A DNA stretch of 64,000 nucleotides from Halisarca cf. caerulea (lineage: Eukaryota; Porifera; Demospongiae; Chondrillida; Halisarcidae). This document shows positions 20,901-26,319 of this stretch, piece by piece. The DNA lies in NCBI GenBank assembly GCA_963170055.1, contig CAUJGJ010000440.1, positions 15,001-79,000 on the forward strand, given 5' to 3'. The notes beneath the pieces were generated by a model. That model was not told the origin of the DNA, did not search any database, and saw nothing but the letters and a program-made list of their open reading frames with translations. Made by a program: the position numbers and the translations under genes. The stretch's first letter is position 1; every line of letters begins with the position of its first letter.

Positions 20901-23900
20901 TGTCAAGAAAATTGCAAAATTAAAAATCGCATAGTGTCTATGGTAGTCACAAAACATACTTTTTACTTTGCATAACATATCAATCCTATGGTAAATTCTA
21001 GAAATGGCTCCCACTCTACTGTGCTCTGCTGGGTCACACCCACCACCCACAAGAGACCCTCCTCAAAGCTCTTCACTGGTGAGGTCGACACACCACTACA
21101 GTTCCTTACCAATGGCGTACTCCAGTAATCTTCCTAGTGTCTCCTGACACTCAGGTGGATGCTTGAAGAACAACTTCATCCCAGTAGTCAGGAGTTGGAG
21201 CTTCACCGAGGATGGTTCTTCAGCCACCCTTGATGCCATGGTCTCTAGAGTATAGGGACTGCCTGGTATAAGCTGAGGAGCAAGTGCAGGAGGTCATGAG
21301 GGGGTCACATGACAACACACCACCATAACACTGACATCACCAAACTCTCCAAGGATCCAAATGTAAGCTGCTTTTCCTCTATCAGTCACATCATCTTCAA
21401 CAGACTTTGGGAGCGAAGGAAGAACTACTTCCAACATGCTTTCATAATTCCTAAGGATCTCTAACAGTACACATAGCAAACATAATAGATTTTTTCTAAA
21501 TCTATTTTTTTCTTCAGACTAACTTGTAAATGCAAAGAGTGTTTCAGATGTGATATGCTTCACCTCAAGTGACAGCAGAGAAAGGAGTTTTACGACACAT
21601 GTTTGAGCATGCTCAGGGATCTTGAGTGCCATAGTACCTAGTGCCTCAATGCTCTTCCTCGACACAAGCACATTTACATCGGTAGAATATTCACTACAAA
21701 AGGAACCACACCCGTGTGTACAGAGAAACCACACCCACATGTACACAGGAACCACTCCCACACATACATAGGAACCACTCCCACACGTACATAGGAACTA
21801 CTCACACATGTACACAGGAACCACTCCCGCATGTACATAGGAACCACTCCCACATGTACATAGGAACTACTCACACATGTACACAGGAACCACTCCCGCA
21901 TGTACATAGGAACCACTCCCACATGTACACAGGAACCACTCCCACACATACATAGGAACCACTCCCGCATGTACACAGGAACCACTCACACATGTATATA
22001 GGAACCACTCCCACACGTACACAGGAACCACTCCCGCATGTACATAGGAACCACTCCCACATGTACATAGGAACTACTCACACATGTACATAGGAACCAC
22101 TCCCGCATGTACATAGGAACCACTCCCACACGTACATAGGAACCACTCCTGCATGTACATAGGAACCACTCCCACATGTACACAGGAACCACTCCCACAT
22201 GTACATAGGAACCACTCCCACACGTACACAGGAACCACTCCCGCATATACATAGGAACCACTCCCACATGTACACAGGAACCATAGGAACCACTCCCACA
22301 TGTACACAGGAACCACTCCCACATGTACATAGGAACCACTCCTACATGTACATAGGAACCACTCCCACACGTACATACATAGGAACCAATCCCACACATA
22401 CATAGGAACCACTCCCACATGTACATAGGAACCACTCCTACATGTACATAGGAACCACTCCCACACGTACGTACATAGGAACCAATCCCACACGTACATA
22501 GGAACCACTCCCACATGTACACAGGAACCACTCCCACATGTACACAGGAACCACTCCCACACATACATAGGAACCACTCCCACACATACGTACATAGGAA
22601 CCACTCCCACACGTACATAGGAACCACTCCCACATATTATACGTACCGTACCCGCTCTAAAAATTCGTCATTCCAATTTTTCGTCAGGCAAAAACAACTG
22701 GTATTTCATTACTCTAATCCAGACGAATACCATGCGCTCTAATTTTTGTCACATTACTCTAAATTTCGTCACTGGCCGGAAGCAATCTAATTATTCGTCA
22801 CAAAGGGGTTTGTTCTTTTGTTTCCATAATTCGTAGTTGCTGTCGTCCATGTTTCAGCTGCGGCAGCCGTTTCTGGTATTTTGAAGGACCTAGTTCCTCT
22901 CGCATGAGTGTTGATGGCTGAATACTGCAGTGATTCTGATTCCGTCTTGTGTACTCCACCTCAAGTTCATACACCAGATGGTTGTTTTTGCACCCCAGAG
23001 CGGGATGATCAGCTTTCGGATCAGCCCTCAGATCATCCCGAATTTTCGCACAGCGACTCTAACGATGTAGAGGATGTCGTAGACCTGTGTGACAGCGATA
23101 CAGAGAATCAGCCCAAGCTGAAAGGTCGGAAAATAACAGATTTTTTTAAGCCTCAAAGCCAGTACACTGGCAAAGATATTCGTTCGTTCGGAGTAAGTCA
23201 GCATCGTTCTCGTCCAAAGAACCCTTCGAAGCAAAGTACAGGCTCTACAGCTGTCATTACTGCGCCAGCCAAATCAAAAGGTAAAAGATCAAACGTGTAC
23301 ACGACCTACACACTAGGAAAGAAATTTGAAGTTTTGGAGTATATCAACGCAGGTCACATGGATACTGATGCTGGTAGGCACTTCGGCATAGCTAGAACCA
23401 CTATTCGGTCATGGAAGGGTATGGAATGTGAGCCGAAACAAAGAATTGCCTCAAAGCTGAAGGGTAAGCATGCAAAGAAGGGTTCTGGACGGCCACTGTC
23501 ATACAGCATTGCACTAGAAGATAAACTGGTGCAGTGGATATTAGAGTCTCGCGATCTACAACTTCCTGTACAAAGGAAGGTGATACAACAAAAAAGAAGT
23601 GGCCTTGATTCAGCCGACGAACCCTGAATTTCGAGCATCTGATGGTTGGCTTCAAAAATTTATGACCCTGAATTCACTTTCATTGCGCAGACACACTTCA
23701 ATCCAGCAGAAGTTACCAGGTGATTTGGAGAAGAAACTGGAAGAATTCATGAGCAGCGTTCAAGCCTTGAGGAAACGTCATGATTTCCCCAGCAATTTGA
23801 TTATCAATATGGATGAAACTCCAATTTTTTTTGACACTCAAGGAGAAAGAACGGTGAACAAGAAAGGTGTTAGGGAAGTTCGTGTGAGAGGAACCACCGG

Positions 23901-26319
23901 CGGGAAGAAGTGTGTCACCTTTGTCGTTGCCTGTGCTTCAGATGGCAAAATGCTAAAGCCCATGGTGATTGTAAAGGGGAAAACATCAAAGTCCATCAAG
24001 AATATCCAATACAGCAGTAAGGAAGTTTGCGTTGCACATCAAAACAACGCGTGGATGGATAACAGGCTCATGTGCACATGGATCAAGGAGGTCCTTGTCA
24101 AATATACTAAGCATAAGCATTGTTTGCTTGTCTTTGACAGCTTTCGGGGTCACCTCATGGAGGATGTTAGTACTGCCTTGAACAAAGCCAACGTAACAAC
24201 TGTTGTTATACCAGGTGGTTGTACCAGCAAAGTGCAACCAATAGACGTATGCTTGCATCGCCCCATCAAGGATATGGTCCGAGGACAGTGGGAGGAATAC
24301 ATGCTACAGGCAACTGCCCAATCTAGCTCAATGTCTATACCTTCGCCATCGAAGACAGACATAGTCAATTGGATTGTGCAAGCCAATTCCATGCTCAATA
24401 CACGTGATGATTGTGTAAGGCAATCATTCAAGGTATGTGGCATCAGCAACCTTCTTGATGGCTCAGAGAATGGCATCATCCGCTGTGTGAAAGAGTTGCC
24501 TAATTTCGATATACCGTATGGTTCAGCTGCCCATTCATCTGAAGAGGAAGGAGACATTTTTGCCAGTGATGGTGACGGTGATACTGATGATTCGGAGGGC
24601 GATTCTACTGAATCATGATTCCGAGTGAACTTTAAACTTAATTTGTCAACTAGGCTTGTTCTGTATTGGTTGTGTTAAGCTACATAATGATTAGACCAAT
24701 CAGTATACATATATCTATGTTCTTGTTTTTCGTCATCATTTATTATTTATCCCTTGCATGGTTTTATCTTGTTTAACTTGATAATATTAAGAATAATTGA
24801 CATATAATCTCAAACTATAGCATTTTCACTCAGTCAATAATCTCAATGCATGAAAGCTGCTGCTCCTCAAAGTACTTCTTCAGTTTACGAATATGTTTTC
24901 TCTTTCTACAATACGCTAATTCACACGGTATCTCCATTCCACCGCGTTCTTTGCAATATCTTCTGGTACTTGTCACTTTTCCCATAATGGTGCCATCATG
25001 TGCCAAGAAGAAGTAAGACACCTTCGAAATTTCACGAGGAAGGTGACCGTGAACCTCATCTTCTGTTGTGCGGGTGATTTTCACAGCATATCTATCGTGT
25101 TCGTTGTCAGTATCTTGTTGACAATTGAATTGTTCATCCAAAACCGGCGTCCAGATATCCTGGTAAACGTGATAGCCACGCACAGCTGTTCGGATCTTCA
25201 ATTCAAAAGAGGACATTTTGACATACCAACACCCAAAATAAAAAAGTGCTCTTAGACTAATGTTTCATCAACATTCTAAAGATTCGTCGAAAAATTCTAT
25301 TTTTTCGTCAGTGGCAGCCATGTTGTTCATTCCTATTCTAATGATACCATATGACGAAATATTAGTGAAACAGTTAGTGACGAATTTTTAGAGCGGATAC
25401 GGTATGTATGTAAAAAGGAACTATACTCAAAGTAAGATGAACATACACAAAACAGCTTAGCAAAATTGACAGTAACATACCCAGTTTCCTCAACGACCTC
25501 CTTAGCAGTTTCTGTGCATACAATTTCTGTCAAAATGTCAATTTTCTTTAACTTCAAATAAGGTGGATCATTGTACCTTTGAGACAAGCAACAATGGTCA
25601 ATGCTACAAGTAGTGATGGTGACAAGCGATAGTGATGCTCGTAATGGTAGCAAGCACTGGTGATGTTTGTGATGGTGATGCTGGTGATGGTGATAAGTGA
25701 TGGTAATGCTGGTGATGGTGATAAGCGATGGTAATGCTGGTGATGGTGATAAGCGATGGTGATGTTGGTGATGTTGGTGACAGTGACAAATGATGATGTG
25801 ATGCTGGTGATGGTGACAAGTGATGGTGATGCTGGTGATTGTGTAAGTAATAGTGATGGTGTTCATTTAGCTGTAATGATGAGAAGGTACCTACCGACAA
25901 AAAAATGATTTGAATTCCTTTTGAAAGAGACTTGGGCTTTTGGCTAGTAGCATCTGCATGTGTTGAAGGCATGTGTAGACCAGCTCTGCACTGTCACTAC
26001 CAAGGAAGGTCAGGAGAGGATCTAGGAAAGCAAATTCAATGAAAACAGACTGATCTGCCAAGAACAACACACAACTAACTTTTCACCCTTTCATGGATGT
26101 CCTCATGCATGTCAAGTGAGTGCTGAGTTAAGTGAAGGAAAAGCCTGACAGCTCCCATCACTACTCCGCTGTTGGCATGACTCAGTCGGTCATCCAACAC
26201 ATTCAACATATCAATCATTTCTTCTTCGTCTGATGGTGTGTACCTCATCAAGACTTCCATCACAGAACACTGACCCCACTCATTGAATTCCTTCAGTCTT
26301 TGAGGAAACTAATTGCATG

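Follow-up and report, generated by a model that had tools for sequence, protein, structure and literature searches.

Convergent DDE transposase and HIRAN protein genes inherited together in pogo-type transposons of the sponge Halisarca cf. caerulea

The sequence analysed here, referred to as the window, is a 64-kb stretch of contig CAUJGJ010000440.1 from the sponge Halisarca cf. caerulea. It contains one TA-bounded transposable element (22646–25402) with features of the pogo superfamily, which carries a DDE transposase gene and, convergent to it on the other strand, a gene for a small HIRAN protein. Comparison of its relatives in the host genome revealed joint inheritance of the two genes across 15 sampled families. 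Elements of this type may use the copying machinery of the host to time or aim their jumps.

Searches of the host genome (194 Mb, 454 contigs), from which all the two-gene loci described here come, identified at least 150 matches to the HIRAN protein and at least 119 to the C-terminal part of the transposase, together with 125 matches to the HIRAN family PF08797. The searches with the window element, the HIRAN protein and the transposase scored the best candidates only, and these counts are therefore lower bounds. After merging, there were 106 transposase loci, and the nearest HIRAN match was located within 5 kb in convergent orientation in 76 of them and in tandem in three. A stricter count, based on the HIRAN-protein matches alone, gave 72 convergent pairs within 2 kb (107 loci), as compared to 0.08 expected by random placement, and close convergent pairs were seen down to 24 % transposase identity.

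The two genes have also diverged in parallel. Identity of the transposase to the window copy was correlated with that of the HIRAN protein (Spearman 0.84, 67 pairs, leaving out the query pair and four of the 72 pairs with short matches), and the distance matrices of both genes were congruent across 15 families, with a Mantel r of 0.89 that was not reached in any of 5000 permutations. These families result from reducing 24 loci to transposases less than 80 % identical, without near-copies, and the convergent arrangement was present in all 24 pairs of the set. Additionally, the proportion of non-synonymous differences (pN) among HIRAN genes from 10 families was lower than that of synonymous differences (pS) in 45 out of 45 pairs (on average 0.316 for pN and 0.788 for pS), a comparison that is qualitative because silent sites are saturated; two closer pairs that could be judged had ratios of non-synonymous to synonymous substitution rates (dN/dS) of 0.34 and 0.35, and near-identical copies hold too few changes.

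Four copies (L057–L060, in contigs C124, C286, C369 and C412 of the host genome, G000) were identical over 2043 of 2043 nt of the element, with flanks agreeing at 308–340 of 1296 bases, which is chance level. All four contain the same 136-aa HIRAN frame and three of them an open transposase frame of 597 aa. Judging from these sequences, the family almost certainly moved recently with both genes, and a two-gene transposition assay therefore looks possible. The second open reading frame (ORF) could in principle be a passenger, derived from a single capture of a host gene or open merely by chance, and the sole points in its favor are the broken state of the window copy and the existence of loci without a partner. 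We rejected this explanation, which is extremely improbable in view of the pairing counts (72 against 0.08), the matched divergence, the purifying selection and the intact state of the gene in recently moved copies.

An element bounded by terminal inverted repeats (TIRs) and TA had been proposed at this position in an initial annotation of the window, and it was confirmed by an inverted repeat of 32 nt at its ends (22639–22670 and 25378–25409, 94 % match) and by the ends of other copies. The border, TA followed by CCGTAT..GCTCTAAAAATTCGTCA, was set from these ends, which recur between differing flanks; a TA was found immediately outside the border in 70 of the 75 distinct end-like matches of other copies, and four of the five matches without it are internal repeats. 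As the ends of other copies fix the border, the element spans 22646–25402, between the two TA dinucleotides of Table 1, in agreement with the initial annotation. Its TIR ends and TA duplication are those of the pogo superfamily. Repeats in subterminal position (ATTCTAAAGATTCGTC) resemble additional sites for the transposase.

Table 1. Features of the element in the window, with their position, strand and supporting evidence
Feature	Position	Strand	Evidence
TA target duplication, left	22644..22645	.	Sequence; outside TA in 70/75 distinct end-like matches
Left TIR, 25 nt	22646..22670	+	Inverted-repeat comparison; ends of other copies
Transposase N-terminal frame: tail, helix-turn-helix (HTH), start of Tc5-type DNA-binding region	22914..23627	+	Stop at 23625-23627
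SIM-like motif (SUMO-interacting motif) in transposase tail	23076..23105	+	Sequence; strict SIM pattern in 7/9 host families
PIP-box-like motif (PCNA-interacting protein box) in transposase tail, position 1 not Q	23124..23153	+	Core in 12/16 N-termini
Transposase C-terminal frame, DDE_1 catalytic domain	23584..24618	+	ORF list; DDE_1 match; DD35D residues
HIRAN protein, 128 aa, convergent to transposase	24830..25216	-	ORF; PF08797 match; predicted fold
Right TIR, 25 nt	25378..25402	-	Inverted-repeat comparison; ends of other copies
TA target duplication, right	25403..25404	.	Sequence; ends of other copies

The transposase of the window copy matched the Pfam family DDE_1 (PF03184) with an E-value of 4.7e-26, and its catalytic D codons (nt 23812, 24136 and 24244) have DD35D spacing; the element thus contains the DDE transposase first assigned to it, with the DDE_1 domain and DDxD triad of the pogo superfamily. 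The N-terminal DNA-binding domains were below cut-off in the two broken frames (HTH_28, 3.7e-4; HTH_Tnp_Tc5, 0.014; CENP-B_N, 0.22), and PF03221 is present as a precomputed annotation in many relatives. The ORF on the other strand had been described as HIRAN-like. Its match to PF08797 is above the cut-off (28.0 bits versus 24.7, E-value 1.9e-6), and its predicted structure has the HIRAN fold.

In the N-terminal tail of the transposase, the initial annotation had recognized a SIM-type motif and, nine residues later, the PIP-like sequence GRKITDFF (23124–23147). Both motifs are there, but the gap between them is six residues, and becomes nine only when counted to the ITDFF core. We examined the N-termini of 15 fetched loci, picked by transposase length and diversity before translation, plus those of the window and of locus L002; 16 were counted, leaving out L062, a near-copy of L061, and with the N-terminus of L065 being incomplete. 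The core [ILVM]xx[FY][FY] was found in 12 of the 16 (0.48 expected), a value that 2000 shuffles of these tails never reached; a looser core is present in 15 (1.41 expected). When the discovery copy, L002 and two more near-copies were taken out, the core remained in 9 of 12 N-termini (0.37 expected, 0/3000 shuffles), and counting one per family in the window-like branch it occurred in 8 of 9, or 8 of 10 including L070. The loose core begins within the first six residues in six out of six deeper families (0.07 expected; L072 left out, plus L084 and L088, whose N-terminus is not clear), with tails starting by MSLFKYF, MSLLNYF, MALLRYL, MSSRVIEDFF and similar; the second proteins of these families are mostly long, and that of the L071 family has 148 aa. 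Additionally, L069 and L075 begin with MAQSLLSSFFKK, containing a canonical PIP box (QSLLSSFF). Loss of the motif between copies would have spoken against the initial annotation; instead, the PIP-box core (h-x-x-aromatic-aromatic) is conserved between families, much more often than in shuffled tails and beyond chance.

A second short motif of the type PxFLxxF/YxP (MPSFLCQFNP, WPSFLQSYKP, IPYFLQRFD) comes after the PIP core in L066, L067, L068, P0029, P0031, P0037 and P0089, at a distance of around 15 residues in several tails; its place is taken by another PIP-like core in L064 and P0023.

The strict SIM pattern was found in seven of nine host families (L070 left out), as compared to 2.29 expected, and three of 3000 shuffles reached this number. 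The SIM core starts 17–22 residues before the PIP core in seven (five host, two database homologues) of the nine tails with both; in L063 and L069 the SIM match sits after the PIP core, unlike the usual order.

The second protein is HIRAN alone, with no protease, in the families closest to the window, and a fusion of HIRAN with a SENP/Ulp1-like cysteine protease in distant families, which could not be seen from the window sequence used for the initial annotation; the assignment of the protease, in these distant relatives only, is based on a C48 family match and a predicted fold. Among 51 homologues, the SENP-like catalytic residues H249 and Q300 were invariant, and D267 and C306 were conserved in at least 90 %. 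Of the alignments used for searching, A2 leaves out 23 of the 74 homologues, which were incomplete or unusual in length, and A1 leaves out P0009 and P0013. No confirmed relative with both genes was found in a second organism among viral contigs, searched with the window protein and both alignments, or among genome contigs, searched with A2; homologues exist in databases, known without genomic context.

The genome also contains short derivatives of the element. All 15 that were measured from TIR to TIR (loci among L009–L030) span 475–628 bp and keep both ends, aligning to positions 1–177 and ca. 2406–2771 of the query, the latter segment (up to 365 nt) covering the 5′ portion of the HIRAN gene. 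This retention would suit a HIRAN protein acting as regulator or repressor of its own transposase, with the derivatives as regulatory relics. We deem this very improbable, because internal deletion derivatives retain both ends anyway and the HIRAN frames of the six of them found among the HIRAN-protein matches are only 56–110 aa, three of them with stops.

Across its families, the lineage combines a PIP-like tail with a HIRAN gene and, in deeper branches, with a HIRAN-SENP gene. With roughly even confidence, we propose that these elements are a two-gene cut-and-paste lineage of the pogo superfamily in which a PCNA-docking tail and a HIRAN partner time or aim steps of transposition. From its motifs, the transposase tail would dock on PCNA, perhaps on SUMO-PCNA, at DNA that is being replicated or repaired; the HIRAN protein might bind single-stranded or forked DNA there, or PCNA itself as Rad5 does, and this binding would set the time or place of excision, of integration or of the repair of gaps. 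Where HIRAN is fused to the protease, the latter could strip a SUMO-like modifier at the same site. The system would then work like TnsE of Tn7, a reader of the beta clamp and of recessed 3′ ends. A more specific version is tentative and clearly less probable: a branch steered by SUMO-PCNA, in which the PIP and SIM tail reads the modified clamp, while the HIRAN or HIRAN-SENP protein attaches to the fork or to the clamp and alters its SUMO modification, as a eukaryotic counterpart of TnsE.

Several observations weigh against a coupling of this kind. The window copy itself is not intact, because its transposase is split over two frames, a point absent from the initial annotation. Its ITDFF core lacks the Q of the canonical Qxx[ILM]xxF[FY], and the full QxxLxxFF was present only in L069 and L075 among the 16 N-termini. 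The box and HIRAN are not always together: L070 has a HIRAN partner and neither tail nor core, and L075, with the canonical box, corresponds to a locus (C418) without a HIRAN match within 5 kb; the box can therefore occur without a HIRAN neighbor. For the database N-termini, a rough criterion was used to delimit the tails, some of which reach into the DNA-binding domain; among 23 of them (26 minus P0027, P0036 and P0051, which are copies from the host included above), the PIP core appeared in 6 (1.27 expected, 4/3000 shuffles). SIM matches in these N-termini (11 of 23; 7.82 expected, 254/3000 shuffles) were not significant, and the SIM is hence not shown as a general feature, its conservation being supported in the host families and not in the database homologues.

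The outcomes that would have refuted the initial annotation were mostly not observed. Regarding the second ORF, it is kept in many other copies and in distant families, although 27 of the 106 transposase loci had no HIRAN match within 5 kb, in addition to the three in tandem; 92 of the 171 merged HIRAN loci were likewise unpaired. These unpaired counts are upper bounds, because a broader profile, applied to six fetched long-HIRAN loci lacking a transposase match, revealed a convergent transposase in five and none in one. Individual cases include L081, with a transposase and no HIRAN match within its 3 kb, L082, with HIRAN as a fragment only, and L086, where the HIRAN frame is long but 4.2 kb of sequence gave no match to the transposase.

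The initial annotation had also suggested that the HIRAN protein binds DNA ends or excision products, referring to the 3′-end binding of the HLTF HIRAN domain. The residues of HLTF contacting the 3′ end are R71, Y72, N91, Y93 and D94; in a weak pairwise alignment (E-value 0.08), the window protein is identical at N91 and D94, with R71, Y72 and Y93 replaced. This comparison gives no support to HLTF-like 3′-end binding, which is a further point against the proposed coupling. The HIRAN domain of Rad5 binds single-stranded DNA without 3′-OH preference and also has PCNA as a partner (PMC7804152). The replaced contacts and the behavior of Rad5 thus weaken the 3′-end part of the earlier proposal.

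Two other roles for the second gene deserve attention. In the first, SUMO-dependent repression at the element (through heterochromatin, piRNA or repair signalling) would be lifted or masked by the HIRAN-SENP protein as an anti-silencing factor, a function that the HIRAN-only protein would have by descent; the PIP/SIM tail would then be no more than incidental localisation. The conserved catalytic residues of the fusion families and the occurrence of Ulp1 and OTU proteases in Ginger1 transposases, and of Ulp1 in Mutator elements (PMC2836005), would agree with this role. However, the closest families have HIRAN alone, under purifying selection without a protease, HIRAN serves in its studied relatives as a DNA- and PCNA-binding module of replication and repair, and the conserved PIP-like core is left unexplained; we consider this role unlikely. 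Alternatively, HIRAN might act after the cut, binding excised ends or the donor gap and steering repair, and PCNA docking would then contribute to filling the gap rather than to choosing a target. It is well established that ends of this type are left by cut-and-paste transposition, and HIRAN domains bind single-stranded DNA and overhangs (PMC7804152). The HLTF 3′-end contacts are mostly replaced here, and a post-cut role seems to us as doubtful as the previous one. Both rivals have the same anatomy as the favored reading and are separable from it at the bench only. With the recently moved family L057–L060, the part played by clamp and SUMO contacts in eukaryotic transposition could be tested directly.

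Next to the element, a 23-bp minisatellite (AGGAACCACTCCCACATGTACAT, ca. 40 copies) occupies positions 21701–22635, stops 10 bases short of the left TIR and is not continued at the right end; an exon-like frame at 26075–26308 (minus strand) resembles an adaptor-complex beta subunit. Just upstream of the 85 % copy in L002 there are remains of a second, more distant element (C412:6294033–6294521; a 63 % transposase piece and a HIRAN-like fragment). Beside the long-HIRAN element of L084 (665–1780) there is a frame resembling a piggyBac-type transposase.

Pogo elements, their PIP boxes and the Ulp1 domains of other DNA transposons (Ginger1, Mutator) were already known; the pairing of a pogo transposase with a HIRAN or HIRAN-SENP gene was not encountered in the literature covered, and is new relative to it. 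No paper linking HIRAN to transposons was found among the matches listed in literature searches, whose coverage excludes Repbase and most subscription journals, and no HIRAN-domain paper was among the matches listed for HIRAN with SENP, Ulp1 or C48. The main text of a pogo survey (PMC7386202) does not contain the terms HIRAN, two ORFs, second ORF or ORF2, and PMC7325037 contains neither HIRAN, two ORFs nor ORF2, with "second ORF" once, for ciliate Tec elements; PMC7785012 mentions a phage HIRAN, and "Hiran" in PMC13237565 is an author's name.

The fusion families resemble Ginger1 and Mutator in that a DNA transposon codes for a CE-clan domain of SUMO-protease type (PMC2836005); the Ulp1 domain of Ginger1 is C-terminal in the transposase, whereas here the protease domain is on the separate, convergent HIRAN gene of a pogo element. 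With Drosophila pogo, Tigger and Lemi1, the present elements share the TA duplication, DDE_1 and the DDxD triad; a yeast two-hybrid screen identified the Drosophila pogo transposase as interacting with PCNA, and a PIP box is reported in pogo and retained in Tigger and Lemi1 (PMC5371812). The difference from that superfamily is the second, convergent HIRAN gene. In contrast to HLTF and Rad5, the HIRAN described here is a stand-alone transposon protein, with 17 % identity to 4xzf and most of the HLTF 3′-end contacts replaced. PIF/Harbinger elements are two-gene eukaryotic cut-and-paste transposons as well, although their second protein is Myb-like and not HIRAN. We know of no sequence relation of the present proteins to TnsE of Tn7. 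The likeness would be in the way of working, since in TnsE one element-coded protein joins contact with the sliding (beta) clamp and recognition of recessed 3′ ends, leading to insertion into replicating DNA (PMC5371812). TnsE is bacterial, whereas in the sponge elements a clamp-type motif and a DNA-binding-type module, both of putative binding, are distributed over two proteins.

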